Shown one piece after another: positions 12,342 through 37,866 of a stretch of 45,459 nt of DNA. Source of the DNA: Candidatus Gastranaerophilales bacterium. GTDB lineage: Bacteria > Cyanobacteriota > Vampirovibrionia > Gastranaerophilales > Gastranaerophilaceae. Position 1 is the first letter of the stretch. The number at the start of each line of letters is the position of its first letter. The translations under genes were made by a program, and so were the position numbers. The stretch covers positions 1 through 45,459 of the forward strand of contig CALVEU010000005.1 in assembly GCA_944326635.1 (NCBI GenBank), given 5' to 3'. Under the pieces are notes generated by a model. That model was not told where the DNA came from. It ran no database searches and worked only from the letters and a program-made list of their open reading frames with translations.

Positions 12342-13409
12342 TTATCCGAAAGTTTTGAAAGTAGATTCAGTATTTTTTTCAATAACTTTTTGTACTGCAT
12401 CCATTTCTGTTGAAATTGCATCTTGTTCTGTGTCAAGTTGTTTTAGTCTTAATTCTAAGTTTTTATCTTGAGCTTGTACAATTTCAATTTTTGCATTAAT
12501 TTCATCGATTGCTTGATCATATTCATATTTTTCATATTCATATTGATTCATAGCATCATCGTATGCATCTTGATCAGTGACTGTAGAAGTTGTAAGAGAA
12601 TAAGTCACACCTGTTCCTTCGATAGGATTTCCTAAATCATCATATTGAGGAATTGTGATATTTATGTATCTTCCTGAACTGTCTTTTTCAATATGACATC
12701 CAGTTGATGCTTTTACTTCTTCAGTTTTTGTTTCACTGCCAATTGTGTAGCAATTTATGTTAGATTGAGAATTTCCGTTATCATCATAATTTGCTTTTTC
12801 TAAATCTGTTTTTTTATAGAAATATGGATTATATTCTCCTGTAGTTGTATTTTGTACATATCTTACTAAATAGTCATCATCTCCATATTTGCTTTTTAAA
12901 AGTTTAAGATATTCTTCTTCTTCTTTTTGAAGTTGAGCGATTTGATCTGCTGATAAAGATTCTAAGTAGCTGTCAGCTCCTCCTGCAGCTTTATCATATA
13001 AACCTTCAGCAGTAGTTGGAATTGTTCCTAAAGTTCTTAATGTAGAAGAACCTACTTTAAATACTGATTTGTCTGCATTAGCATTTACAATACTTGTAGC
13101 AGCTCCTACTACAGAAAAATCGTCTTTCCATTGTCTGATATAACTAATTGTATAAGTACCATCAGTTTGAGCTATCATAGATGTAATTTGATTTGTTAAA
13201 GCACCATCTTCGAAAGTATACACAGTTTTTGTGTAATCGTCGACAGACGGTGGAGTCGGTACTGACATACCCAACAAATCGTTGTAGTAATTAGCAGATT
13301 GGTTTGACAATGTTGTTCTTTGTTGGTTGATCTGTTGACCTTCAAATTCAACATTGGTTTTTCTGGCTGTCAGACCTAAAAATCTAGCTTGTGACGCTGC
13401 CATTCCCAT
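12342..13409 (-). CDS. filament-like protein with conserved helical termini, unknown function (355 aa)
   Basis: Not assignable to a known family, but clearly paralogous to the 585-aa protein at 20039-21796. Both share the N-terminus (MGMAASQARFLGLTARKTN here, MGLAAGQARLLTITARKSD there). Both share a C-terminal coiled coil (LELRLKQLDTEQDAISTEMD here, LDLKMKNLDTEISSLSTEYD there) that ends near SFK. The middle is unrelated, Ser/Thr/Tyr/Asp-rich and probably beta-structured. I chose the ATG at 13409 rather than 13463 because AAGGAA lies 11 nt upstream, exactly as in the paralogue, and homology begins there. No signal peptide is seen. Conserved terminal helices around a variable centre is the layout of flagellin-type and needle-type subunits, which is suggestive only. 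It is the last gene of the possible cobalamin-switched operon. Confidence 0.75.
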   Translation of the reverse strand: MGMAASQARFLGLTARKTNVEFEGQQINQQRTTLSNQSANYYNDLLGMSVPTPPSVDDYTKTVYTFEDGALTNQITSMIAQTDGTYTISYIRQWKDDFSVVGAATSIVNANADKSVFKVGSSTLRTLGTIPTTAEGLYDKAAGGADSYLESLSADQIAQLQKEEEEYLKLLKSKYGDDDYLVRYVQNTTTGEYNPYFYKKTDLEKANYDDNGNSQSNINCYTIGSETKTEEVKASTGCHIEKDSSGRYINITIPQYDDLGNPIEGTGVTYSLTTSTVTDQDAYDDAMNQYEYEKYEYDQAIDEINAKIEIVQAQDKNLELRLKQLDTEQDAISTEMDAVQKVIEKNTESTFKTFG

Positions 13410-13517
13410 TGCTGTCGATCTTCCTTTCTTGTTACTTAGTACTCGTATCCATGTTATCGACACATGAGAATTAAAACTTTAATCATGTTTTAAATTATGT
13501 TAAGAAATTGTAACATG

Positions 13518-14003
13518 TTATTTTTGAGGTTGATTTCTAAAACGGTCTGAAATGTATGATAAGATTGCACCTCCGATTTCTTCATTAGGATCAAAATTTG
13601 AGGTTTGAGGTCGAATAGAATTTTGTATCAGCATTTTTACAAGAGGCCCAAAAGCATCTGGGACTTGTGTTTTTCTATAAATTCCAGCAAGATATGTTTG
13701 GATATTAGGGGAAGTTGTATTATTAAAACGCGATAATATAGGGTACATTTTATCAATCCCTTTTATACCATTATCAATCATTGAATTTAGAATATGCAGA
13801 GTTTCTACTATTTGTTCTTCGTTATTAGAATGAATTAATATGTCTGTAAGATAAGGTAAAGCAGCTTCTTTTTGAGATACAAAATGATCTACTTTATTTT
13901 TATCTACAATTGTATAATTCCTGTTGCCTTGTGGTAATTGACAAGGTATATATTGGTTTTGTTGAATTTTATAAGGTTGTATTGTTATATAATTATACAT
14001 CAT
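13518..14003 (-). CDS. hypothetical protein, probable helical-repeat fold (161 aa)
   Basis: Not recognised at family level. After a polar N-terminal 35 residues, the protein is a series of short amphipathic helices (EAALPYLTDILIHSNNEEQI, VETLHILNSMIDNGI, YPILSRFNN, IQTYLAGIYRK, FGPLVKMLIQ). This resembles HEAT/ARM-type repeats, so a scaffold or partner-binding role is plausible. It has no signal peptide or membrane segment. AAGGAG precedes the start; the second Met is an equally possible start. It lies 15 nt downstream of the membrane protein gene and is presumably co-transcribed with it. Confidence 0.65.
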   Translation of the reverse strand: MMYNYITIQPYKIQQNQYIPCQLPQGNRNYTIVDKNKVDHFVSQKEAALPYLTDILIHSNNEEQIVETLHILNSMIDNGIKGIDKMYPILSRFNNTTSPNIQTYLAGIYRKTQVPDAFGPLVKMLIQNSIRPQTSNFDPNEEIGGAILSYISDRFRNQPQK

Positions 14004-14018
14004 TTGGATCTCCTTAGG

Positions 14019-15506
14019 TTATGAATATACAAACGGAGGTCCGTTTTTAATTTCAAATAATATATTATCTGCTATTATCTTTAATTCTTCTTTTGGCTTT
14101 CCGTTTTGAGCTTGTTTATAGAATTCATCAACGAGAGGTTGTATTGCGGCTTCTTTTTTTGATTTGAAGTTTCGAAGTTCTGTGGATATAAGTCTATTTT
14201 GTAATTCAACTTCAGTTTTAGCATTCAGTTTTTTCACCTGAACTTCTTTAATTGCGTCTCCAGCAAGTTTTCCGCCATAGCTAAGAGCTGTAATTCCTGT
14301 TATCCCAAAGAATAACTGTTTAAATTGTTTATTATTTGTATCTAAAAGCCAGTTGTAGAAAAATGCTCTATAGTCATCTACATGAGAATAGAATGTTGGT
14401 TTTGGAGTTCCATCTCCACCAATTGTTTCATTTACCTTTGTTGTTGATGTTTCTGCTTTTTTTATGAGTCTTTGTGTGAATTCATCAACTTCTGATTTAT
14501 TCCATTTTAATCCTTTTAAGTATTCTTTTATTGTATCTGTATGAGCATCTATTGATTGGAAATGAGCTTCTAGTAATTTTTTATCATTTTCTTTTGTTGT
14601 TTCTGAAGAGTTTTGAACTATTTCCTTAATAAGATTTTTTCTATTTTTAGCATAATCTTCTAAAAGGGACTTACTTTTACTTAAGTTTTTAAGTGATAAG
14701 TAGCCTAATCCTATTATTGTAGCAAGAGTAGTTGCTCCTAAAAGAAAATAGTTTAAATTGTTATTATCTTGGTTAAAGTTGTTATTATTATATTTACCTG
14801 TAAAACGAAGATGTTTTCCAAAATTTGGAAGAATTTTTTCTTTATCGTCTGATAAATATTTGCTGAATTCTTTAGCTTTTTCAGACAACATGCTTCTTGT
14901 AATTTGGATTTTACCTGCAAATGATTGGGTTTCTATATCAATTAATTTTTCTTGCATATCTTTTTGTATATCTGCTTCACGTTTTTTTACCCAAACATCT
15001 TTAAATCCGTCAAAAAAAGTTTTTCCCATAAATCCCATTGCGCTTAATGTGAGAACTCCTATCCCTGCAAGGATAGTTTTTCTTGTCGGGCTTGCAATCA
15101 TTTGATAAAGGGCTTGGTGCTTTTCATCATTAAGAGCTACGTTTCTGGTAAGTTCAGGTAATCTTTTTTCATTTGATATTTTAAGATTAATTTTAGTATT
15201 GCGTTTTACAAATGCTGATAATAGTGTAATAATTCCCATAACTCCTACAGCTATTCCACTTATTGGGAGTATACTTTTTTCAGGAGAATTGCTTTTTTCA
15301 TATAATTTAGATGGCATTTTAGAATTTTCTGAAATTACTAAAGTATCACAAGTGTCTTCAAGATTTATCTTGCATTCTGGACAATCTTTTATAAAATTAT
15401 TTACTAAAACACCTTCTTTTGTTTCAGTATTTGCTCGTTTTTGAGTAGAAGTAAGATGCTTTTGTTGTCTTAATGTTTCGCTGTCGTGTAGCGGACTAAT
15501 TGTCAT
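14019..15506 (-). CDS. membrane protein with an internal duplication, unknown function (495 aa)
   Basis: Not recognised. It has four hydrophobic segments, at about residues 79-100, 144-165, 252-272 and 397-416, separated by charged, coiled-coil-like stretches. The block after segment 2 (DVWVKKREADIQKDMQEKLI, then DIETQSF) resembles the block after segment 4 (EVQVKKLNAKTEVELQNRLI, then STELRNF), so the protein appears internally duplicated. The N-terminal tail has DCPECKINLEDTCD, a possible metal or disulfide site. The ATG overlaps the end of the upstream gene by 11 nt, indicating translational coupling. A role as membrane anchor or scaffold of the locus is inference. Confidence 0.75.
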   Translation of the reverse strand: MTISPLHDSETLRQQKHLTSTQKRANTETKEGVLVNNFIKDCPECKINLEDTCDTLVISENSKMPSKLYEKSNSPEKSILPISGIAVGVMGIITLLSAFVKRNTKINLKISNEKRLPELTRNVALNDEKHQALYQMIASPTRKTILAGIGVLTLSAMGFMGKTFFDGFKDVWVKKREADIQKDMQEKLIDIETQSFAGKIQITRSMLSEKAKEFSKYLSDDKEKILPNFGKHLRFTGKYNNNNFNQDNNNLNYFLLGATTLATIIGLGYLSLKNLSKSKSLLEDYAKNRKNLIKEIVQNSSETTKENDKKLLEAHFQSIDAHTDTIKEYLKGLKWNKSEVDEFTQRLIKKAETSTTKVNETIGGDGTPKPTFYSHVDDYRAFFYNWLLDTNNKQFKQLFFGITGITALSYGGKLAGDAIKEVQVKKLNAKTEVELQNRLISTELRNFKSKKEAAIQPLVDEFYKQAQNGKPKEELKIIADNILFEIKNGPPFVYS

Positions 15507-16194
15507 TTTCTTCTAAATCCTTTTCATTTTTGCTTGTAAGTTTTTTATATAATTTGTGAATGAAAGTTCTTAATTCAAAAGCTTTTTTTGTTTCATCTAT
15601 TTGTTTGTCATTATTATCAGAATCTGCAGGTTGGAATATTGAAAAAATTGATTTAATTTTCTTTTTTATTTCTTTAAAAGTTTCTGATATTTTCTTTTCG
15701 ATAGATGCTTTTAATTCACCCATCATTGCGGTTAATTTGTCAGAAATATCTGCAAGTTTCTGTTGAATTGTTTGTATTGCATTTGAGATAGTTGTAGGTA
15801 TATTTGCAATTGTTTTTATTATATTGCCTAATACTGTGTTTAATACAAAATTGATTGGTTTTGCAATTATTGCAGGAGTATTATTAGAAAAAAATTGTGC
15901 AATATTTGCTAATTTTTGGCTTGAATTAATTAAAGCATTTTGGAATGCTTGAACATTTTGTGCAAAATTTTTAGCATCTTGTTCTCTTTGCAATTTTGCA
16001 TTTTGTTGAGCTTTTAAAAATGCACCAATTGCAGCACATTCATTCCAACTCATTTCTCCTGGTTTGGCTGAAAAATCAGCTTTTTTCATTCCTCCGCCAC
16101 CCATTCCGTTGCATATTGGGCATGCTCCTAGTGGCAATCCGTGCGGGCAAGTCCCTACTCTTGGGCTATTTGTATGTACGGCTGTAAGTGACAT
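15496..16194 (-). CDS. CxH-x6-CxxC motif protein, cobalamin-riboswitch controlled (232 aa)
   Basis: Not recognised as a named family. Near the N-terminus is GTCPHGLPLGACPICNGMGG, with Cys16, His18, Cys25 and Cys28 spaced as in a small zinc knuckle. MSWNECAAIGAFLKAQQNAK follows. The middle (about 105-150) holds moderately hydrophobic amphipathic helices (NTPAIIAKPINFVLNTVLGN, IIKTIANIPTTISNAIQTIQ), then a highly charged Lys-rich coiled coil. There is no cleavable signal peptide. It is the first gene after the cobalamin riboswitch, and its Shine-Dalgarno AGAGGA (16207-16202, 7 nt from the ATG) can be masked by an upstream TCCTCT. It overlaps the next gene by 11 nt. Confidence 0.72.
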   Translation of the reverse strand: MSLTAVHTNSPRVGTCPHGLPLGACPICNGMGGGGMKKADFSAKPGEMSWNECAAIGAFLKAQQNAKLQREQDAKNFAQNVQAFQNALINSSQKLANIAQFFSNNTPAIIAKPINFVLNTVLGNIIKTIANIPTTISNAIQTIQQKLADISDKLTAMMGELKASIEKKISETFKEIKKKIKSIFSIFQPADSDNNDKQIDETKKAFELRTFIHKLYKKLTSKNEKDLEENDN

Positions 16195-16201
16195 TAAAAA
16201 A

Positions 16202-16282
16202 TCCTCTTTATGTAAATTGCATTAGAGGACAACTGAGAAAAATATATCTTATTACCGATGCTCGCAGTAAATAAGTTTTTCT
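16202..16282 (-). promoter_or_regulatory. riboswitch expression platform: hairpin plus Shine-Dalgarno sequestrator
   Basis: Two elements follow the aptamer on the minus strand. First is a long hairpin in which AGAAAAA and CTTATT (16282-16270) pair with AATAAG and TTTTTCT (16253-16236). Second, TCCTCT (16229-16224) is perfectly complementary to the ribosome-binding site AGAGGA (16207-16202). The same TCCTCT could instead pair with AGAGGG in the aptamer at 16339-16334. This suggests a switch in which ligand binding frees TCCTCT to block translation. No T-run follows the hairpin, so translational rather than transcriptional control is inferred. Confidence 0.6.
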
Positions 16283-16343
16283 GAGTATTCCGGCTTTTAC
16301 GGTTGCGGCACAGCTGGAGATATTCACTCCATTCCCTCTTATT
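16281..16343 (-). promoter_or_regulatory. cobalamin riboswitch aptamer
   Basis: On the minus strand the segment reads TAAGAGGGAA, then the hairpin TGGAG/CTCCA (16331-16327 and 16319-16315), then GCTGTGCCGCAACCGTAAAA, then AGCCGGAATACTCAG. This follows the cobalamin riboswitch core in order: the GGGAA box, the GGUG...UCC hairpin, the CCGCNACUGU segment and the B12-box-like AGYC.GGA.ACC. It is compact, with no obvious long peripheral arms, and the last element is diverged. It lies 87 nt upstream of the 232-aa gene in the correct orientation. The call rests on remembered consensus features, not on a covariance search. Confidence 0.82.
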
Positions 16344-16438
16344 AATTTAAGAATATTATAAGGATTTTTTGTAGTCAATTATTTATAAATTAAAGTTAAT
16401 AATAAATAATAAATTATTCATATTTTACTAGTTAAACC

Positions 16439-16467: not shown

Positions 16468-16490
16468 AATAAAAAATGAGGAGTGAAAGT

Positions 16491-19043
16491 ATGAAAATAT
16501 CAGGATGTTACAGTGACTCAGAAAAGTCATATGTAAAATTTGGCTTAGTAAAAGATTATACTAAGAAAATTAATAATAAAAAGTTTTCTGCATTTACTTT
16601 AGCAGAAATGATGGTAGTAATGCTGATAATGAGTATTATATTAGCAGCAATGGCTCCAGTAATGACGACACGAAGTAAAGCGGATTCATCATCGCCTTGG
16701 CGTTATTCTCCCGATAATGCATCTGATGCTTACTTTGGGATAGGTAATAGCCAAATAGCAATGATTGGTCAACCAAATAAGTTAGATACAGATGATGCTG
16801 CTCGTTTAATAATTAATTCAACTGATGCAGTAAGAACTCAAATATCATTCAAACGAAATAATGCTAATGCAGGTAGATTATATATGGATACAAATCATAA
16901 TATTATTTATGGTAATAGTACTATGGATAAATTAGCCGGAGGTTCTTACAACATTGCAATTGGATTAAATAATTTAACAGAAATTACATCAGGTCAAAGT
17001 AATATTGCGATAGGTGATAGTGCTTTAGTTAGTAATACTTCAGGAAGAAGAAATACTGCAATAGGGACTTGTTTGGGTTCAAATACTACAGGTAGTGATA
17101 ATACTGCAATTGGAGATGATAACTTAGCTTCAAATACAACAGGTATTAATAACGTAGCTTTAGGTGTTGATGCCTTAGCAAAAGCTACAACTGCAAATTG
17201 GAATGTCGCTATTGGTAAAAATGCATATCAGAACGGTTTAGGCTCAACTAATACCATTATTGGTGGAGATGCAATGTCTAAGGGGTCTGGATCCAATAAC
17301 GTAGCATTAGGTACTAATGCCTTATATTATGGTGATGGTGATGGAAACGTAGCTATAGGTGCTAATGCAGATTATACAACTAATGTATTATCAAGTTATA
17401 AAAATTCAACAGCAGTTGGTTTTTCTGCACAAGGACCTGGAGAAGCTTCTACAGCTATTGGTTATAATTCAAAAGCAGGGTCAAATGGCTCTGTAGCCTT
17501 AGGTGATTCTGCTGCTTCTTCTGATATTCAGGCAATAGCAATAGGTGCGTCAACAGTAGCTTCTGGAGACAGTTCAATAGCTATAGGATCAAAAGGAACA
17601 GTTGGAGCGACAACTATCGGTACAAGTGCTTCTGCGAGCCAAACAATAGCAATTGGTGATATGACTAGAGCAACAGCTACTTCAGCTATTGCGATAGGAA
17701 CATCATCAACAGTTGGAGGTAATTATGCAACTGGTTTAGGATATAATGCTGTAGCAAGTGCAAATAATTCTCTAGCTTTAGGAGCATCTTCAACAGCAAA
17801 TAAAGTTAATTCAGTATCTTTAGGTGTATCATCAGGGGCTACTGGGGATTATTCTTCAGCTCTTGGACCTTCTTCAACTGCTTCCGGAAACCGAGCTATA
17901 GCAGTCGGTAATGGTGCAACATCTAGCAATGATACTACTGTAAGTATAGGTGATTCTGCTTCAGCATCTGCAGAAGATGCTATAGCAATAGGTGATCGTA
18001 CTCAAGCATCAGGAAATAGTTCAGTTGCTATAGGTAGTTCGTCTTCTTCTGGTGTTGCAAGAGCTACTGCTAATTATTCAATTGCAATAGGTGATGGAAC
18101 TTATGCATCAGGAGCTAGTTCTGTATCTATTGGTGATATTGCAAGTGCTACTGGGTCAAAGTCTGTTTCTTTAGGATATAGTGCAATTTCTAATGGAACA
18201 GATTCTATTGCCATAGGACGCAGTGCAAAAGCTAAGAATTCAAATAATATTGCAATAGGAACTAATGCTTGTCAATATGTTACAGGAGGTAATAAAATTT
18301 GTATAGGCGCTAATTCTGGTCCCAAAAGTGGTGATAGCTGGGGAACAGATAGCGAAGAAAGAATATTTATCGGTAGCCAATCAAAGTTTAATAGTGGTAA
18401 CGCTGTTTTAGAAGTTCATAATAAAAGTGGTTACGAAGGTCGTATTTATGATAATAAATACTTGCCTGGCTCAGTAGTTGTTGTAAATGGTGCTTTGTTA
18501 GTTAAAGGTGGTATAATTACTTCAATGCCTTGGGCTGATGGTGGACACTTTAACGGTGATGGTGGCTTAAATATGATAGGACGTACTGGATCACAATTAG
18601 AACCTATTAATACAGAATCTGGTACTGGAGAAGTTGATTTTCAGGAAATATTTGTATCAAATAACCGTGGTCAATTCCGTTCTCCAAATAACTATACAAA
18701 TGGCAGTGTTTATAGTGGTTGGTCTGATAAACGCTTAAAATATGTAGGAAAAGAATTTAAATCTGGCTTAGATAAAATAAGAGAATTAAAAGTATATAAT
18801 TATACATTCAAAAAAGATAAGAATAAAACACCTCATGTTGGTGTGATAGCTCAAGATTTACAAAAAGTATTTCCTAATGCAGTAAAGAAAGCAAGCAATG
18901 GATTCTTAACTATTCGTATGGAAGATATGTTTTATGCAATGATTAATGCGATAAAGGAACTTGATTTAAAATACCAAGCCCAAGAAAAACGTATTAATGA
19001 TTTAGAAAAACGTATTGAAATATTAGAGGCTAAAATTAAATAA
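16491..19043 (+). CDS. chimeric surface protein: prepilin N-terminus, YadA-like head repeats, S74 self-cleaving chaperone
   Basis: A putative trimeric adhesin or fibre. Domains in order (850-aa numbering): a 34-residue leader; a class III signal and hydrophobic helix A|FTLAEMMVVMLIMSIILAA (cleavage before Phe35); then about residues 110-580 of short repeats of the NSVALG/DSIAIG/ASG type, as in YadA/Hep_Hag beta-roll heads; then a C-terminal endosialidase-type chaperone (peptidase S74). The last has the cleavage pair in GWSDKRLK (Ser745-Asp746, codons from 18723) with the conserved downstream Lys. VGVIAQDLQKVFPNAV and a terminal coiled coil follow. In phage tail fibres this domain drives trimerisation and then cuts itself off. 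I chose Met 16491 over 16476 because GAGGAG (16478-16483) lies 7 nt before it. Prepilin plus S74 in one chain is unusual. Confidence 0.9.
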   Translation: MKISGCYSDSEKSYVKFGLVKDYTKKINNKKFSAFTLAEMMVVMLIMSIILAAMAPVMTTRSKADSSSPWRYSPDNASDAYFGIGNSQIAMIGQPNKLDTDDAARLIINSTDAVRTQISFKRNNANAGRLYMDTNHNIIYGNSTMDKLAGGSYNIAIGLNNLTEITSGQSNIAIGDSALVSNTSGRRNTAIGTCLGSNTTGSDNTAIGDDNLASNTTGINNVALGVDALAKATTANWNVAIGKNAYQNGLGSTNTIIGGDAMSKGSGSNNVALGTNALYYGDGDGNVAIGANADYTTNVLSSYKNSTAVGFSAQGPGEASTAIGYNSKAGSNGSVALGDSAASSDIQAIAIGASTVASGDSSIAIGSKGTVGATTIGTSASASQTIAIGDMTRATATSAIAIGTSSTVGGNYATGLGYNAVASANNSLALGASSTANKVNSVSLGVSSGATGDYSSALGPSSTASGNRAIAVGNGATSSNDTTVSIGDSASASAEDAIAIGDRTQASGNSSVAIGSSSSSGVARATANYSIAIGDGTYASGASSVSIGDIASATGSKSVSLGYSAISNGTDSIAIGRSAKAKNSNNIAIGTNACQYVTGGNKICIGANSGPKSGDSWGTDSEERIFIGSQSKFNSGNAVLEVHNKSGYEGRIYDNKYLPGSVVVVNGALLVKGGIITSMPWADGGHFNGDGGLNMIGRTGSQLEPINTESGTGEVDFQEIFVSNNRGQFRSPNNYTNGSVYSGWSDKRLKYVGKEFKSGLDKIRELKVYNYTFKKDKNKTPHVGVIAQDLQKVFPNAVKKASNGFLTIRMEDMFYAMINAIKELDLKYQAQEKRINDLEKRIEILEAKIK

Positions 19044-20008: not shown

Positions 20009-20040
20009 AAAAATCCGATTTATTAAAATCGGATTTTTTT
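20007..20040. terminator. bidirectional intrinsic terminator
   Basis: A perfect 10-bp stem, AATCCGATTT (20012-20021) with AAATCGGATT (20026-20035), is flanked by A and T runs. It sits between the convergent acyltransferase gene and the 585-aa gene. Confidence 0.92.
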
Positions 20041-21796
20041 ATGCATTATATCTTTTGAAAGATTTCTCAATATTTTTCGATATCGTATTTTTTACTGTAT
20101 CATATTCTGTTGATAGTGAAGAAATTTCTGTATCAAGATTTTTCATTTTTAAATCAAGAGTTTCTTCTTTAGAATTAAGTTTAGCTTTTTCTGTTGTATA
20201 TTTAGCTTCAGCTTGAGCAATAGCAGTATCATCAGATATTTCTTTGATATATGAGTCTGTAGCGTAATTTGATTGATAGTAATATCCATCATCTTTCATT
20301 TTTGAAATATACAACATTCCACTTTGTAACATTTCTTTTAAGTATTCATTATCTTCGATATTATTATTTTCAGTCCATCCATTTGCACATATTTGATTAA
20401 ATAATGCATCATAGAATGTTGCTTGTCCCAAATCATCACTTGATACTTCAGATCCTGTTTTTATTGTGTATTGGAATAAATAATCGTTTGTTGCTAATCT
20501 GTTTTCTTCAAGACTTCCAGCTGTTACATAGTATTTTTCTTTGCCATCAGGTGCGGTATTTGATACACCATCCATATATTTAACAAAGTATGTAAGGAAG
20601 GCTTTTGCTATGTTATTTAAATTTATACCTGCAGTACAATGATCGTTACCATCATCATCTTTGCCTTTATTAGATGCTGCATAGACAAAACCAACATAAT
20701 TTTTGCCATTAATAACTACGTTTGGATCATAGTTTTCAACATCGCTGCTTATTTGTGTACCAACTGGATCTAAGAATCCATTTACATTTTGGTTTTTCCA
20801 TTCAGTGCTTTCATCCCAATCAGTATTTCCTGTTGTATTTAACCATTCATCATGCCAATTTTGATATTCTTCAGTGTCAGGACCATTGATTAGTTTTTTT
20901 GTTTCTTCTTTTGCGTATTCAAGAGCTTTGGCAGTATAGCCATCTCCTAGATCAAGAACTGCTGAAAATTCATCATATAACCAATCAACAAATCCTCCAG
21001 GGCCTGTTAAATATTCTTGCATCATTGCAGTTGCAGTTACAGGGCTTTGTTCACTTCGAACAGATCCATAGTAATCTAAGTTGTATTGGTTTTCACCTGA
21101 TAATAAATCTGCTACAGTGAAATTCGCAGAATCTGTATCAGTTACTGTTCCTGATGAATCAACAACTTTGGTTCTGATAATACAATTATTCATATCATCT
21201 TTAGCACCTTGAATTTGTTGAGAAGATTCAAGTTTAGTAGTCGAAAATTCTGTTCCGTTTTCTTCTAAAGATTTTATGAGTTCGTCTATATTACCTGTTT
21301 TAGTTGTAACAGCGGTTGTTGTTCCTCCACCAAAACCAGCTTGTTGATTGTAAGGTAATCCTAAAATTGTTTCAGCTGTATTTTTAGTGATGATACCACT
21401 AGTATATAGACCTTGTATAAAAGAATTACGCATAGCTTCAGAAGGTAATGTCCCTAAACCTTCTTGTGGGATTCCTGCTGCTCTTGCTGCAGCTGCGTAT
21501 TTACTGTTTAGTGTTACTCTACCTAATGAGTCTGTGATTGTTATTGGTAAATAATCGTTTAATGTAGATGGACTCATTAATAATCCATATGATAATGGAG
21601 TAGAAGTATCGCCTGTTCCATAGTAATCATATACTAATTTTGTTTGATTTAAAGAATTTTGATATTCATTTGAAAGGTCCGCAAGCTCTCTTGATAATGC
21701 GATTTTTTGGTGTGAGAGTCGCATAGATTCATATTCGCAGTCAGATTTTCTGGCTGTTATTGTTAATAATCTAGCTTGTCCTGCTGCTAATCCCAT
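20039..21796 (-). CDS. filament-like protein with conserved helical termini, unknown function (585 aa)
   Basis: Larger paralogue of the protein at 12342-13409. Shared parts are residues 1-50 (MGLAAGQARLLTITARKSD, then helical) and the last 50 (LDLKMKNLDTEISSLSTEYD, ending near KSFKRYNA). The roughly 480-residue centre is Tyr/Asn/Asp/Gly-rich with no signal peptide. It has few cysteines (C19, and single Cys in NNCIIRT, DHCTAG and QICANG). GAAAGGAA lies 11 nt before the ATG, the same arrangement as the paralogue. The gene is monocistronic, ending at the shared terminator 20007-20040. Conserved end helices and an unrelated middle suggest a polymerising or secreted subunit, but no function can be stated. 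Confidence 0.78.
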   Translation of the reverse strand: MGLAAGQARLLTITARKSDCEYESMRLSHQKIALSRELADLSNEYQNSLNQTKLVYDYYGTGDTSTPLSYGLLMSPSTLNDYLPITITDSLGRVTLNSKYAAAARAAGIPQEGLGTLPSEAMRNSFIQGLYTSGIITKNTAETILGLPYNQQAGFGGGTTTAVTTKTGNIDELIKSLEENGTEFSTTKLESSQQIQGAKDDMNNCIIRTKVVDSSGTVTDTDSANFTVADLLSGENQYNLDYYGSVRSEQSPVTATAMMQEYLTGPGGFVDWLYDEFSAVLDLGDGYTAKALEYAKEETKKLINGPDTEEYQNWHDEWLNTTGNTDWDESTEWKNQNVNGFLDPVGTQISSDVENYDPNVVINGKNYVGFVYAASNKGKDDDGNDHCTAGINLNNIAKAFLTYFVKYMDGVSNTAPDGKEKYYVTAGSLEENRLATNDYLFQYTIKTGSEVSSDDLGQATFYDALFNQICANGWTENNNIEDNEYLKEMLQSGMLYISKMKDDGYYYQSNYATDSYIKEISDDTAIAQAEAKYTTEKAKLNSKEETLDLKMKNLDTEISSLSTEYDTVKNTISKNIEKSFKRYNA

Positions 21797-30558: not shown

Positions 30559-33500
30559 ATGGCGCTAAATGTAGATGAAATTGCTGAAATCCTCAACACT
30601 ATGCGTGTTGAAAATGAACGTAATGTTGAAAATTTTGAAAAGTTTCTTACAGGTATTAATGCAAAATTAGAAATTATGTCTGATGATAATGAAGCTACTG
30701 ATTTATTAAAACTTTATATTTCAGAACTTAAAAAATCTGTTGAAGATAGACATAATATTACTATCCAACGTTTTGGTGCTATTGATCAATCTATTCAAAA
30801 TATTTTATCTTCTCAAAATTCCTTTGCCAAAACTGAAGAATTAAAAGATTTATTTCATGTTCTCAGTTTAAATTTTGATAATTTTTCAGGCGAAGTAGCA
30901 GATCAAAAAAATGTTTTAAAAAGTCTTGATGAAAAAATTTCTAAAGTAAATGAAAATGCCTTTAATAAAGATGAATTGTCTGGAATTATAAATGATGTAT
31001 CTGCAAATATTTCAGATATAAATACTCAAATTGATAAAGCATTTAAAACTTTTCAAAATTCATTAGCTGATGTAATTTCAAATATAAATAATTTGAGTTC
31101 AATAAAGCAGGTTGATGAAATTAAAAATAAAATTGACTCTCTTTCATTAGATGTAAATAATATTCCTTCAAAAATATCTTTTTCAAATTTAGAAGATAAA
31201 ATCTTGTATTTTCAAAATTTAATAGATTCGACAAAAGAAGTTGTTTTGAATGCGTTTTCTGATAATTCTGATAATATTAATAAAAAATTTCAAGTGTTTG
31301 AAAATTCGTTAGAAAACATTGTCACAGATTCAGATTTTTCTGGTTTCAAGTCAGATTTGGCAGATTTTGTTCAAAAAATTATTGATAATTCTACTGCATT
31401 GAATAATAGTTTATCTTATAGTACTGAGCGTATTGAAAGTATTTTATCAACTATTAATTCTTTGGATTATAAAAAAGATTTTGAATTTATATCAGAACAA
31501 TTTGCAGAATTAAAAAATGAAATAAGTGATGGTAATGATAGAAATAATTCATTAAAAAATGATATTTCTTTGAATTCCATAAAAATATTAGATAAAATTT
31601 CAGAGCTTGAACAAGTTTTATCTGAAGTGAAAACGGATGAAGCTCTAGAAAATTTTAGGGGAAGTTTAACAGAGTTAGTAATACAGGTTCAAAGCAATAC
31701 TAAATCTTTAAACTCTGATTTATCATATGGAATTCAAAAATTAGAAAGTATAAATGATGTTGTAAGTTCGTTGTCTTTCAAAGATGATTTAAGTTATGTT
31801 GAAGAAAAAATAGATGAGTTAAAAGATTTAGTAAACTTGGTTTCTTCTGATAATTCTTCAGAATTTGAAAATTTGCAAAAATCTCTTTCAACAATAGTAA
31901 CAGATTCAGATTTTTCAGGCTTTAAATCTGATTTGGCAGAATTTGTTCAAAAGATTATTGATAATTCTTCTGCATTGAATAATGAATTAGAATATACTTC
32001 AGAAAGAATTGAAAATATATTAACGTCTATCAAGTCAATTGATTTTAGGGAAGATTTTGAAAATATTGTATTGAAAATTAATGATTTAAAAGATGTTTTT
32101 GAAGATGGAGCAAAAGTTAATTATACAAATCTTTCTGTAGAATTGGCGAATTTGTCTGAGAAATTCGATGCAAGTTTCTCAAATCTTGATGAAAAAAGAC
32201 AAGATATATATAGTGATTTAAAAAGTGAGTTAGCTAATATATTATTAAATATTCATAGTTTAATGGAAGCTAGCCCTCAGAAATCTATTGAAGACCTTTC
32301 TGTTTTATTAACTCAAATTTCTGAGAATATTTCATTAATAAGAAATGGTATTAGTTCAGATCTTCAGGAAGATTATGGTGATGTCAAATCAAGCATAAAT
32401 TCAATTATATTAAGTTTGCAAAGTACAAAAGAAGAAATTCTGTCGAATAGTATTGCAAATGCAAATAATTATGGTGAAAATTTTGATAGGGTTATTTCGA
32501 AAATAGAAACTCAAATTAGGAATTTATCAGAATTAAAAGATGTTTTAGTTGAGAATAATAAATTGGAATCTTCTAATCTATTATCTGCAATTGATAAATT
32601 AAATATAGATATTACAGATGCTGTTTCTGGAATTAGTGAAAATGAAAACTCTAATTATGAAGCAATAAAAGAATACATTGAAGAGTTGTCTTCAAATTTA
32701 AATAATTTATATTCTCAGTTTGAAAATATAACAAAACAAAATTCTACAGATATTATTTCAGAAATAAGTACAGTATCAGATAATGTAAATTCATTAAAGG
32801 ATGAATTTAGGCAAGCAGTTGAAACTAATTTAAATAATTCTTCTAAAATCGTAGATGGTATGTCTGTAATTTCTGAACGTATTGACAGTGTGCAAGATGT
32901 GTTGAGTATAAATTCTGCAAATAATTTTGAAGCAATACAGCTTTCATTTGAAGATTTAGGGAAAAAATTTGTAGATATCATAAATCAGCACAAAGATTCT
33001 ATTGTTCAATTAACTGAACAAAGTGAGCAGAAAAAATTAGAAGTTTTAAATAATTTATCAACTGATGTAAAAAATGTTCAGGATTGGTTAACTTCGAATA
33101 ATGAAATTTTTAAATCAGTTGTCAAAAATAATATTTTAGAAATAAAAGATTTTATCGGAGAGGCAAATAATTCAATTTATGAATCTCAGGTTGTAAGTGA
33201 AAATAAGTTAACTTCAAAACTTGAGACATTGGAAGTTTTATATCAAACGTTTGAATCTAATGTTTCTGATGTAAATTCAGGGATAAAAAATATTCTTGAA
33301 AATATTAATCATCTTGATACAACAGAACAAAATAAAATTGTAAAACAAAAACTTGAAGATGTAAAAAATTCGGTAGAATTTTTATCCGAAAAATTAAATA
33401 ATATTGAAGATAAAAATAATGAATTTTCTTCAATTTTGTTAAGTTTATCTGAAATAGTTTTGAAAAAAGATGATATAAATAATCTTGAAAATAAATTTAA

Positions 33501-36500
33501 TGAGTTTTCTGAATTATTAGTATCGGTAAAAGATATTATGAAAAATTCAGAAGATGTTAATTTAGCAGAATTTTCAAAACTTTGTGACAAATTTGATGTT
33601 TCTTTATCAGGTTTATTATCTGAAAATACTTTTGAAAAATATAAAACAGAATTATTAGAATTAATTCAAAAAATTATAGATAATTCTGAAATATTGAATA
33701 CAAATTCTCTTTCATCTCAATCAAAAATATCAGAGATAATAGAAAAAATTTCAAACTTTGAACCTGTTAATTATTCATATGATTTAGAACAAATTGCATT
33801 GAAAGTGGATAAGTTATGTGAAATTATTGAGAGCAATTCAGATGAAACATTTGGAAAATTAAATCAAAAATTTGATGAAATAAAAAATGAAATTTCTAAA
33901 AATAATATTTCAGAATTAGTTAATAATAAATTTGAAAATTTTGCTGAGATTTTAGATTCTTTAAAAGATTTAATTTCAAATTCTTCTGATGTAAATTCAA
34001 ATATTATTGATAGTAAATTAGAATTATTGCAAAATAATTTTTCAAATATTGTAACAGAAGAAGATTTTACAAATTTCAGATCAGATTTTACTGATTTTGT
34101 GCAGAAAATTTTAGATAATGTTACTGTTGCACATTTTAATTCTGATAACAATAAAGAAAAATTATTTGAAATTGCAGAACAAATAAAATTATTAGATTCC
34201 TCAAGTAATTTTGCAGATTTGTCAGCTCGATTAAATGATGTTAAAGAGCAATTGGTAAATAATGTTAAAACTAATTATGATAATATAATTACTTCAATTA
34301 ATTCATTAAAAGATGAATTTGATAAGAATATTACTGAATTAAGTGAAGACAGAAATGAAAAATATAGTAATATAAATAAAGAACTTTCTGATATTTTATT
34401 AAATGTACAATTATTAAAAGATTTTTCATCAGAAAAATCAACAGAAATTTTTGAAAATATTTCAACAGATTTACATTTATCTTTTAATGAATTAAAAGAT
34501 AATATTAATTCAGGGACTAGGGTTGATATTGAAAACTTAAAAAATCTGATTAATGATGTAAGTTTGAAACTAGAAGGTTTTTCAACAGATTTTATTCAAA
34601 AATATGATTCAAATTCATTTAGTATGTCATCTGGATTTGATAATGTAAAAATATCTCTTGAAAATTTAATTGATGCATTTACGAATTTTAGAGATTTGGT
34701 GAAAGATGATTTGTCTGCTAATGTCGATGCATTATTACCAAATCTGAATGACATTACTTTAAAAGTTGATAATTTGATTAATGAAATTAAAGTAATGTCA
34801 TCAGAATATTCCGTAAAAATATTAAATTCACTAAATGATATTTCAAGTAAATTTGATAATTTATCGGATGGTATAAGTAGTGAAATTAATGAAAATATGT
34901 CTGCATTTAAAGATATATTGACTTCATTATCTGATAATTTTGAATCTCTACATTCAGAAATTTCACAACAATTAAAAGATAATAATGATGTTCAGTTAGT
35001 AGAGTTGAAAAATATTTCGTTAACTATTACTGATTTTAAATCTCATATAAACGAAGTTACTGATAGTTTAAAAGATTATATTTCTGAATTAAATATAGCA
35101 GCAAAATCTTCTAAATCTTTAAGTGATGCAAAATTCTCAGAAAAATTGTTAGATTTGGAATCTGCAATGATTCATTCTTCAGAAGTGTATGAACAGAAAA
35201 TGGAATTATTGCAAGGTAAACTATCTGAATTCGCTCAAATTATTGAGGGTAGTGCATCAGACACTGAAGCTAAAATCGCATCTTCTGTAGAAGAAATTAC
35301 AGATGTAAAAACAGAATTATCAATATTAAATGATTCATTGAAATCTATAAAATTATCTTCTGATGAAAAGTTTACTGAAACTGTTGCTTCAATTGAAACA
35401 GGTATAAGTAGTATAATTAGTGATCTTGATTCTGTAAGCAATTCTTTATCAGAAGGAATTAATGAAAAATTAAATGAAAAAGTATTACATTTAGATGAAA
35501 AATTTGATGATTTATTAACATCAATAAATGATATTGCTTCTAATAATTTATCAAATGATTTAGAAGAAAAATTATCAGGATTAAAACAAGAAATTGGTTT
35601 AATAAATACAGATATTGCAAATGCATTACAAGAAAATGCTGATAATATTGAAAATTCTATAAATGATTTAAAATCTGATATTCAAGAATTTACAGCTTAT
35701 GATTTTGATAATATTGTTAATGAAATAAAAGCACAACTGGAATTATCTTTTATGAATTTCAGTGTGGATATTAATGGTGAACTTTCATCTACAGGTGAGG
35801 CTGTATCAAGATTAGAACAAGCTTATAAGGAAACATATAACAAAATTTCGTTAATTGAGGAATGTGTTTCTGAAAAAATTCAAAATGATATTGAATTATT
35901 AAATGTGACAATTGAACAGAATTCAAGAGATATTAAAAATACATTTGGAGATAAATTAGATAATTATATAGATGAATTGAAATCTCATCTAGATTTACTG
36001 TTAAACAATACTAAAACATATGAAAAAATTGATAATTTGAAAGATGAATTGTCAATAAAATTAGACGCGGTAATAGGTGAGCAAAATAATTTATCAGAAT
36101 CTGCAAAAACTCTTATTGATAATAATGCTGAATTAAATCAAAAATTAGATGCATTAGTTGAAAGTTCAGATACTGAAGAAATTTTAGATTCTTTAACTGA
36201 AATTGAATTGAAGGCGCAAGAAAGAGGAGCTGATTTAAAAGATATTATAAATTCATTAACTTCAAAAGTTGATGTAATAGCAAATGACTCATCATTAAAA
36301 CTTGCATTATCAACCATTAGTGAAAAAATAGATTCAATTGCGGATAACAATACTATTGAAATAGCTCTTAAAATGTTATCTGAAAAAATTGATATATTAA
36401 TTGCTGATAATTCTGTAAGTTCATTAGGTGATAAGGTAAAAGAAAACTTTGAATTAATTAATAGTAAAATAGATGTAATAGCAACTGATTCATCTATAAA

Positions 36501-37866
36501 TGATTTACAAAATAGTTTAGCAGATGCATTTAATGAGATTAATACAAAGATAGATGTAATAGCAGCTGATTCATCTGTAAATGATTTACAAGATAATTTA
36601 GCAGATGCATTTAATGAAATTAATACTAAAATAGATATTATAGCATCTGATAGTTCAATAGAAGAATTGCAAGAAAAATTTGATGAAATCTCTGAAACAG
36701 AAGAAAAAGTTGCAGAAATGCTATCAGCTTTGCATGAAAAAGTTGATGTTCTAGCAATGGATGGAAGTGATTTTGATTTAGAGGAAGAAATTGATGATAT
36801 TAAAGATTTAATATTTGAACAAAGAAAATATTTTGAAGCAACTTCCGATGAAAAAGCAGCTGCTATTGATAAATATTTAAGAGATGTATTATTAAAATTA
36901 GATAATGTAGATTTAGAAAAAAATTCAGAAGACATAAAAGATTCAATAATGAATGCTTTGGTATCATTATTTGATCAAATTTCATTTGTAGAAGAAACGG
37001 AAGATATAAAAGATTTTGTCGAAGAAAAAACAGATGAAATTAATCAGAATTTAATAGAGGTTCAAAATCAATTAAAGCAAATTGCAAGTTCTAATGATGA
37101 TTTTGATTATTCATATACATTGCAGGATGTAGAAACTGATATAGCTAAATTAAGATTGGCAATTAGCAATATGTCAGGTAATGATTTTGAAAGTTTATCA
37201 GATGATATTAAAAAGATTGTAAATTCAGTGGAAGGACTAGAATCCACTTTAACCCAAGATCAAGTTGTTGACTTAAAGGGTGATATTGAAAAATTAAATG
37301 AAGATATTTTGAGTATTAGTTCTAGAACTAATAAAATACTTCTATCATCAGATGAATCATACAAAGCATTGAATGAAGGATTAAATAATTTTAGTAGTCT
37401 TGTATATAAGTTAGAAGATAGGCTAAATTATCTAGATAATAATGCAATAAGTGAAAGATTAGAAAAGAAAATTGACAATATTCAATCAATGTCTATAGCT
37501 TCAGCTAATGCTGATAAAGTATTCCATCAAGTAATGATGTATTTAGGAGAATGGATAGATTCTACTACAGAAAATATTTCAAGTATTACTGAAAAAACAT
37601 CTGAAATTGCAGATATAAAAGAAAGTATAAATGAGTTAAAAGAGGCTATACCTGAAAAAACTTCAATTTTAGATGAGCTTGAAGAGAAGTTTGAACAGCA
37701 AGAATTACGAATTGATAGATTAGAGATGAAAATAGAGAAAATTTTATCGGCACTTGAACAAAAAGATGATATGATGTTAAATAGAAAAGTGGATAAAATT
37801 GAAAAATTAATATCCAGACTTGGTACAAATATAGAAAAGTTGGCATCATATGTTGATGAAGAATAA
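30559..37866 (+). CDS. giant coiled-coil repeat protein, unknown function (2435 aa)
   Basis: Not assignable. The 2435 residues are almost wholly alpha-helical, acidic, and rich in Asn, Ser, Asp, Lys, Leu and Ile, with no signal peptide, membrane segment or nucleotide-binding motif. A module of about 70 residues, with a core like SDFSGFKSDLADFVQKIIDN, recurs. The clearest copies start near residues 256 and 448 (192 apart), with diverged ones near 1019 and 1165. A 27-residue unit (KIDVIAADSSVNDLQDNLAD type) is repeated in tandem near residues 1970-2035. The C-terminal 60 residues are a classic Glu/Lys coiled coil. A GGAAAGAG ribosome-binding region precedes the ATG. The layout suits a cytoplasmic or polar scaffold or filament. 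Its end overlaps the FAD oxidase gene. Confidence 0.85.
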   Translation: MALNVDEIAEILNTMRVENERNVENFEKFLTGINAKLEIMSDDNEATDLLKLYISELKKSVEDRHNITIQRFGAIDQSIQNILSSQNSFAKTEELKDLFHVLSLNFDNFSGEVADQKNVLKSLDEKISKVNENAFNKDELSGIINDVSANISDINTQIDKAFKTFQNSLADVISNINNLSSIKQVDEIKNKIDSLSLDVNNIPSKISFSNLEDKILYFQNLIDSTKEVVLNAFSDNSDNINKKFQVFENSLENIVTDSDFSGFKSDLADFVQKIIDNSTALNNSLSYSTERIESILSTINSLDYKKDFEFISEQFAELKNEISDGNDRNNSLKNDISLNSIKILDKISELEQVLSEVKTDEALENFRGSLTELVIQVQSNTKSLNSDLSYGIQKLESINDVVSSLSFKDDLSYVEEKIDELKDLVNLVSSDNSSEFENLQKSLSTIVTDSDFSGFKSDLAEFVQKIIDNSSALNNELEYTSERIENILTSIKSIDFREDFENIVLKINDLKDVFEDGAKVNYTNLSVELANLSEKFDASFSNLDEKRQDIYSDLKSELANILLNIHSLMEASPQKSIEDLSVLLTQISENISLIRNGISSDLQEDYGDVKSSINSIILSLQSTKEEILSNSIANANNYGENFDRVISKIETQIRNLSELKDVLVENNKLESSNLLSAIDKLNIDITDAVSGISENENSNYEAIKEYIEELSSNLNNLYSQFENITKQNSTDIISEISTVSDNVNSLKDEFRQAVETNLNNSSKIVDGMSVISERIDSVQDVLSINSANNFEAIQLSFEDLGKKFVDIINQHKDSIVQLTEQSEQKKLEVLNNLSTDVKNVQDWLTSNNEIFKSVVKNNILEIKDFIGEANNSIYESQVVSENKLTSKLETLEVLYQTFESNVSDVNSGIKNILENINHLDTTEQNKIVKQKLEDVKNSVEFLSEKLNNIEDKNNEFSSILLSLSEIVLKKDDINNLENKFNEFSELLVSVKDIMKNSEDVNLAEFSKLCDKFDVSLSGLLSENTFEKYKTELLELIQKIIDNSEILNTNSLSSQSKISEIIEKISNFEPVNYSYDLEQIALKVDKLCEIIESNSDETFGKLNQKFDEIKNEISKNNISELVNNKFENFAEILDSLKDLISNSSDVNSNIIDSKLELLQNNFSNIVTEEDFTNFRSDFTDFVQKILDNVTVAHFNSDNNKEKLFEIAEQIKLLDSSSNFADLSARLNDVKEQLVNNVKTNYDNIITSINSLKDEFDKNITELSEDRNEKYSNINKELSDILLNVQLLKDFSSEKSTEIFENISTDLHLSFNELKDNINSGTRVDIENLKNLINDVSLKLEGFSTDFIQKYDSNSFSMSSGFDNVKISLENLIDAFTNFRDLVKDDLSANVDALLPNLNDITLKVDNLINEIKVMSSEYSVKILNSLNDISSKFDNLSDGISSEINENMSAFKDILTSLSDNFESLHSEISQQLKDNNDVQLVELKNISLTITDFKSHINEVTDSLKDYISELNIAAKSSKSLSDAKFSEKLLDLESAMIHSSEVYEQKMELLQGKLSEFAQIIEGSASDTEAKIASSVEEITDVKTELSILNDSLKSIKLSSDEKFTETVASIETGISSIISDLDSVSNSLSEGINEKLNEKVLHLDEKFDDLLTSINDIASNNLSNDLEEKLSGLKQEIGLINTDIANALQENADNIENSINDLKSDIQEFTAYDFDNIVNEIKAQLELSFMNFSVDINGELSSTGEAVSRLEQAYKETYNKISLIEECVSEKIQNDIELLNVTIEQNSRDIKNTFGDKLDNYIDELKSHLDLLLNNTKTYEKIDNLKDELSIKLDAVIGEQNNLSESAKTLIDNNAELNQKLDALVESSDTEEILDSLTEIELKAQERGADLKDIINSLTSKVDVIANDSSLKLALSTISEKIDSIADNNTIEIALKMLSEKIDILIADNSVSSLGDKVKENFELINSKIDVIATDSSINDLQNSLADAFNEINTKIDVIAADSSVNDLQDNLADAFNEINTKIDIIASDSSIEELQEKFDEISETEEKVAEMLSALHEKVDVLAMDGSDFDLEEEIDDIKDLIFEQRKYFEATSDEKAAAIDKYLRDVLLKLDNVDLEKNSEDIKDSIMNALVSLFDQISFVEETEDIKDFVEEKTDEINQNLIEVQNQLKQIASSNDDFDYSYTLQDVETDIAKLRLAISNMSGNDFESLSDDIKKIVNSVEGLESTLTQDQVVDLKGDIEKLNEDILSISSRTNKILLSSDESYKALNEGLNNFSSLVYKLEDRLNYLDNNAISERLEKKIDNIQSMSIASANADKVFHQVMMYLGEWIDSTTENISSITEKTSEIADIKESINELKEAIPEKTSILDELEEKFEQQELRIDRLEMKIEKILSALEQKDDMMLNRKVDKIEKLISRLGTNIEKLASYVDEE
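36469..36660 (+). repeat. tandem 81-bp repeat inside the giant coiled-coil gene
   Basis: Units beginning ATAGATGTAATAGCA at 36469 and 36550, with a third, diverged copy at 36631, give an 81-bp period (27 codons). The first two units are nearly identical at DNA level, so the expansion is recent or being homogenised. Confidence 0.85.

Follow-up and report, generated by a model that had tools for sequence, protein, structure and literature searches.

Cobalamin riboswitches typically act as OFF switches on genes for B12 uptake or for the B12-independent ribonucleotide reductase. What, then, does such an element control when the genes behind it resemble neither? The question arises from a 45,459-nt stretch of DNA (the window, in what follows) from a bacterium that public relatives of one of its genes, gB, place in Candidatus Gastranaerophilales. 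A first reading of the sequence (the original prediction) had located a cobalamin aptamer on the minus strand at 16281–16343 and had suggested that the genes downstream might form a new corrinoid-responsive surface or uptake system.

The riboswitch and the genes behind it

The covariance-model search proposed with the original prediction returned a match to RF01689 (AdoCbl-II) that covers all 81 model positions at 45.7 bits (E = 5.8e-8) and exceeds the curated gathering score of 36.5, so the aptamer is genuine. RF01689 is the sole Rfam match in the window at curated thresholds, RF00174 staying below its cut-off at the same site (24.5 bits), and no second cobalamin riboswitch was found in the source genome (1.84 Mb, 92.6% complete). 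The AdoCbl-II or AdoCbl-variant riboswitch was listed from marine sequences (Weinberg et al. 2010, PMC2864571); the present element shares its core and its L5–L13 kissing loop and aligns over its full length above the gathering score. Unlike the marine listing, it precedes orphan genes of Gastranaerophilales organised as an operon, and a Shine–Dalgarno (SD) hairpin stands immediately ahead of the start codon. A literature search retrieved no account of an AdoCbl-II switch in Melainabacteria or Gastranaerophilales. The promoter-like site beside the aptamer agrees with the consensus at 9 of 12 positions, in a region where such sites are no more numerous than in shuffles (Table 1).

The controlled unit consists of three orphan genes, gA, gB and gC (16194–13518, minus strand), with the predicted spacing: gA and gB overlap by 11 nt and gC follows after a further 15 nt. 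Pfam and NCBIfam searches of the window's proteins gave no match above any cut-off for the three products, Pfam searches of 25–29 homologues per alignment yielded nothing beyond weak helical or coiled-coil noise, and PDB profile searches gave coiled-coil noise for gA and gB and nothing for gC; the claim that these genes resemble no known B12-regulated family thus stands. The CxH-x6-CxxC motif noted in gA is real: 28 aligned homologues share C16, P17, H18, G19, C25, P26, C28, C53, K153 and E160 without exception, and C16, H18, C25, C28 and C53 provide five potential metal ligands. Cobalamin adenosyltransferase was considered as an identity for gA and rejected, the Cob_adeno_trans match (14.6 bits) lying far below its cut-off of 24. 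No relatives of gA were found in plasmid records and none of gB in phage records.

For gB, the predicted internal duplication was recovered (residues ~149–224 against 400–472, with a BLOSUM62 score of 88 where the best of 200 shuffles reached 55), but not four clear transmembrane segments: two hydrophobic segments are strong (77–102 and 254–272) and two are weaker. Its low-confidence structure model (pLDDT 66, pTM 0.43, best fold match E = 0.27) has long helices extending beyond the membrane. The model of gC is confident (pLDDT 89) and bears out the helical-repeat description, being an alpha-helical ARM/HEAT-like repeat. Comparison of gC with PDB structures gave ARM/HEAT matches with probabilities up to 0.99 (best E = 0.087) in a protein with no Pfam match, and structure searches with the gB and gC models gave no significant match. 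No hydrophobic segment of any kind was found in gA or gC, and the label ‘envelope-type’ is not supported for these two.

Table 1 Features of the riboswitch leader, the operon and the adjoining gene
Feature	Position	Strand	Remarks
Promoter-like TTGACT-N17-TATTCT	16350–16378	−	consensus scan; just 5' of aptamer; weak
AdoCbl-II aptamer (RF01689)	16278–16354	−	45.7 bits; P4 and other pairs covary
Aptamer 5' strand AGAGGG, proposed anti-sequestor	16334–16339	−	complementary to anti-SD with one G-U; inferred
L5 loop UGCCGC, kissing loop 5' side	16305–16310	−	covariation at pair 45–100
L13 loop GCGAGCA, kissing loop 3' side	16259–16265	−	within hairpin 16275–16248
Anti-SD UCCUCU	16224–16229	−	aligned leaders
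gA SD AGAGGA, paired with UCCUCU; then UUUUUU, AUG	16202–16207	−	covariation
gA, 232 aa, orphan family	15496–16194	−	N-terminal CPHG-x5-CPIC...C53 (putative metal site), amphipathic helices
gB, 495 aa, membrane protein, orphan family	14019–15506	−	internally duplicated hydrophobic segment and long helix
gC, 161 aa, orphan family	13518–14003	−	ARM/HEAT-like helical repeat; deeper ancestry in class
gD, coiled-coil protein of paralogous family	12342–13409	−	neighbour; outside conserved B12 unit

The fourth gene, gD, had been assigned to the same transcript. In the genus of the window, as in several others, it lies behind gC; it is missing from that place in L049–L054 and in many remoter loci (in L053 it is encoded on the opposite strand, at a distance from the operon); distant genera carry gA-gB-gC either without gD or with gD elsewhere, and it was accordingly rejected as an operon member. 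Most homologues begin at MGMAASQARFLG, which makes ATG 13409, not GTG 13463, the probable start of gD. A protein resembling the distant paralogues of gD (MGLAAGQARLLTITARK...) is encoded on the same strand about 6.6 kb off (20039–21796). Divergent from the riboswitch, a single plus-strand open reading frame (16476–19043) encodes an unusual chimera of pilin signal and trimeric adhesin: its N terminus carries a prepilin-type motif (PF07963, over cut-off), 12 stretches match the YadA-head repeat (PF05658), and the C terminus is a Peptidase_S74 endosialidase chaperone (PF13884). Farther along the same strand lies a giant, apparently coiled-coil protein of 2435 aa (30559–37866).

Leader covariation and the proposed switch

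An alignment of 34 leaders shows pairing in 95.7% of the cells of the named structure (P4, P6, the L5–L13 kissing loop and the SD hairpin), with 37 cells changed on both sides; none of 500 shuffles equalled these values, and sliding the partners destroyed the pairing. The kissing loop, which links aptamer to expression platform in cobalamin riboswitches (PMC9600662), is paired in 89.7% of cells, far above slid controls, and two of its pairs have changes on both sides. The first kissing pair (45–100) is U-A in 24 leaders, with A-U in 7 others and G-C or G-U in a further 2. Within the SD hairpin, 97.5% of cells are paired, and two pairs are again changed on both sides. In two leaders (L020 and L090) this hairpin has changed from UCCUCU...AGAGGA to UCCUUA...UAAGGA, and the aptamer 5' strand has likewise become UAAGGA; these matched changes suggest that the anti-SD alternates between the SD (off) and the aptamer 5' strand (on) as its pairing partner. 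Folding of the single leader sequence is uninformative, its stability being not unusual (z = −0.82). One leader (L049:139-471) carries inserted direct repeats of ~80 nt between aptamer and SD.

As read from the aligned sequences, the kissing loop and the SD-sequestering hairpin support translational control. When intracellular corrinoid is plentiful, the switch would hold gA-gB-gC off: with ligand bound, the kissing loop would form and the anti-SD UCCUCU would pair with the SD AGAGGA before the gA start, blocking translation. Without ligand, the anti-SD would pair instead with the aptamer 5' strand AGAGG(G/A), leaving the SD free. The U-run 3' of the SD hairpin would also leave room for a terminator. 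Ligand binding and the alternative pairing are inferred here, as is the OFF direction, which follows from the other AdoCbl-II targets in the family, btuB(CDF) and nrdD. Under scarce B12, the three proteins would accordingly be made, accompanied by NrdD(G) or BtuBCDF in those relatives that have additional copies of the switch.

Linkage of riboswitch and operon across the family

Among 146 genomes of the family, the AdoCbl-II switch was found in 133 and gB in 123, where it occupies a single locus except for a few split or partial matches. Specifically, 102 of the 150 listed switch positions precede gB on its own strand at a distance of 693–971 nt. Inspection of the regions upstream of the 21 gB genes outside this list revealed RF01689 or RF00174 in 17 and weak matches in two (G123, 25.3 bits; G102, 24.7 bits), with no detectable switch in G109 and G142. 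The element in G102 has a ~60-nt insert beside P6 (L135:2621-2837), which probably lowers its Rfam score. Comparison of related genomes, the further check attached to the original prediction, therefore yields linkage in 119 of the 123 genomes with gB, plus the two weak cases, and this linkage holds even where identity between the gA proteins falls to 27%. Switch and gB also co-occur strongly over the 146 genomes (p = 3e-7, a value that ignores shared ancestry). Loss of the switch does occur, since gA in G142 comes straight after another gene with no switch between them.

The operon extends beyond the family: two further families in the order supply three genomes that carry it. Two of these genomes (L120 and L121) have weak RF01689 matches of 28–29 bits right upstream of gA, and the third (L119) has a cobalamin-like core motif, recognized by eye only; farther out in the class, gC occurs with neither gA nor gB nearby. 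Composition also varies within the family. Two genera, g25 and g30, have gA-gC without gB, which is thus dispensable there; both have NrdJ and lack BtuC. In two loci of g25 (L085 and L133), gA is followed by two tandem copies of gC. All riboswitch-linked copies examined include gA, and gC was not detected in g21.

The 150 listed switches control 107 gA operons, 36 nrdD genes, 5 btuB genes, 1 gene for a B12-binding radical SAM protein and 1 unrecognised target; the 48 that are not beside gB include 5 gA-gC operons without it. The btuB targets are accompanied by btuC where the contig allows, and one genome (G038) has three switches, on btuBCDF, nrdDG and gABC. In genus g18 the switch precedes btuB-btuC, and gB is absent. 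The switch lies directly before the radical SAM gene in G032 (L078), and a match in G012 (L097:2657-2734) precedes two short open reading frames with no NCBIfam match.

These results make it almost certain that the AdoCbl-II switch is real and that gABC, under its control, is a low-B12 operon. A chance or decayed element beside unrelated genes, as the unexceptional folding stability of the leader and the switchless gB loci of G142 and G109 might be taken to indicate, is contradicted by the linkage itself, as well as by a score above the curated cut-off and the covariation, and is scarcely credible.

B12 status of the family and the role of gABC

The expression expected of gABC is shared with genes of known function: the same riboswitch family governs btuB-btuC-btuD-btuF in G038, btuB and btuC in g18, and the B12-independent replacement for NrdJ, nrdD, at nearly a quarter of the listed sites. 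By contrast with the Btu operons, none of whose components has sequence in common with it, gABC encodes products with no match to a receptor, permease, ATPase or binding protein; unlike NrdD-type isozymes, they contain no recognisable enzyme domain and match no Pfam or NCBIfam enzyme above cut-off.

The genomic context is that of organisms in need of B12. CobS and EcfT/CbiQ (PF02361) were found in none of the 146 genomes, the FecCD/BtuC permease (PF01032) in 12 and the TonB plug (PF07715) in 14, neither of the latter two being found in the source genome; all four profiles gave matches in control genomes. This importer search covered BtuBCDF and ECF markers. Full-length AdoCbl-dependent NrdJ is encoded in 99 genomes, including the source genome. 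Because CobS and EcfT are absent, FecCD and the TonB plug rare and NrdJ common, the family appears to be B12-auxotrophic, mostly B12-using and mostly devoid of BtuBCDF or ECF importers. NrdJ and gB co-occur above expectation (gB in 90 of 99 genomes with NrdJ versus 33 of 47 without the full-length protein; Fisher p = 0.003, a value that ignores shared ancestry). The negative association of gB with BtuC is weak (p = 0.10; p = 0.047 for BtuB); BtuC and gB occur together in eight genomes, and G080 has NrdJ and lacks switch, gB and BtuC alike. The ECF-type B12 transporter CbrT, described for gut bacteria (PMC6593275), would be comparable in its possible role in auxotrophs, but the EcfT component of such importers is precisely what all 146 genomes lack.

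OFF-switch behaviour, together with the scarcity of importers despite NrdJ, makes the low-B12 operon the best candidate for the missing system of corrinoid acquisition or handling. We assign a probability of roughly 0.4 to a role of this kind at the cell envelope, in which gB would be the membrane part, gA a soluble partner with a metal motif and gC a helical-repeat adaptor, serving B12 auxotrophs most of which have neither BtuBCDF nor ECF importers. The uptake half of the original prediction is therefore plausible, given a family with no detected B12 synthesis and few of the importers searched for; its surface half fits gA and gC poorly. The estimate stays below one half because gB is absent from g25 and g30, no outer-membrane part is apparent, 33 genomes keep gB without full-length NrdJ, and G080 has NrdJ alone. 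Genus g9 is a case of gB without the full-length enzyme. No ATPase, substrate-binding protein, beta-barrel, signal-peptide-like segment or transporter domain was found in the operon's proteins, which leaves the outer-membrane route unexplained. The proposal of a new acquisition system, unrelated to BtuBCDF or ECF transporters, in most of this animal-gut family, which depends on B12 and lacks the importers searched for, is less likely than not.

The same observations can be read in other ways. The constancy of gA in riboswitch-linked copies, set beside the loss of gB in two genera and of detectable gC in g21, as well as the five invariant potential ligands of gA and the soluble helical repeat of gC, would suit intracellular storage, delivery or salvage of corrinoid by a gA–gC core with gB as membrane anchor; no match in sequence or fold to a B12 chaperone or adenosyltransferase points that way, however, and the importer question would be left unanswered, so we consider this unlikely. 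Rather improbable as well is a low-B12 fallback that, with no part in uptake, stands in for a B12-dependent process or buffers it, much as NrdD substitutes for NrdJ: the many nrdD targets of the switch and the retention of gB without full-length NrdJ are consistent with it, but gA, gB and gC match no enzyme family and no B12-dependent enzyme was found to pair exclusively with gABC across genomes. An envelope or host- and partner-association programme under B12 scarcity, such as attachment to B12 producers, is quite improbable; it could draw on the adhesin-like (16476–19043) and coiled-coil (gD) neighbours and on the long helices of gB, yet gA and gC have no export signal, and from genus to genus the switch does not keep these neighbours. 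Our preferred reading remains a role in acquiring or handling corrinoid at the envelope.

Gut communities are shaped by competition for B12, and B12 need is usually predicted from importers. Here, a gut family looks B12-auxotrophic and mostly B12-dependent through NrdJ, yet about nine in ten of its genomes lack both BtuBCDF and ECF importers. The gABC operon extends the target range of the AdoCbl-II riboswitch, and its three orphan families, near-universal under a B12 switch, offer a short, testable list of candidates for B12 acquisition or management. They are the prime suspects for how Gastranaerophilales obtain or handle B12.
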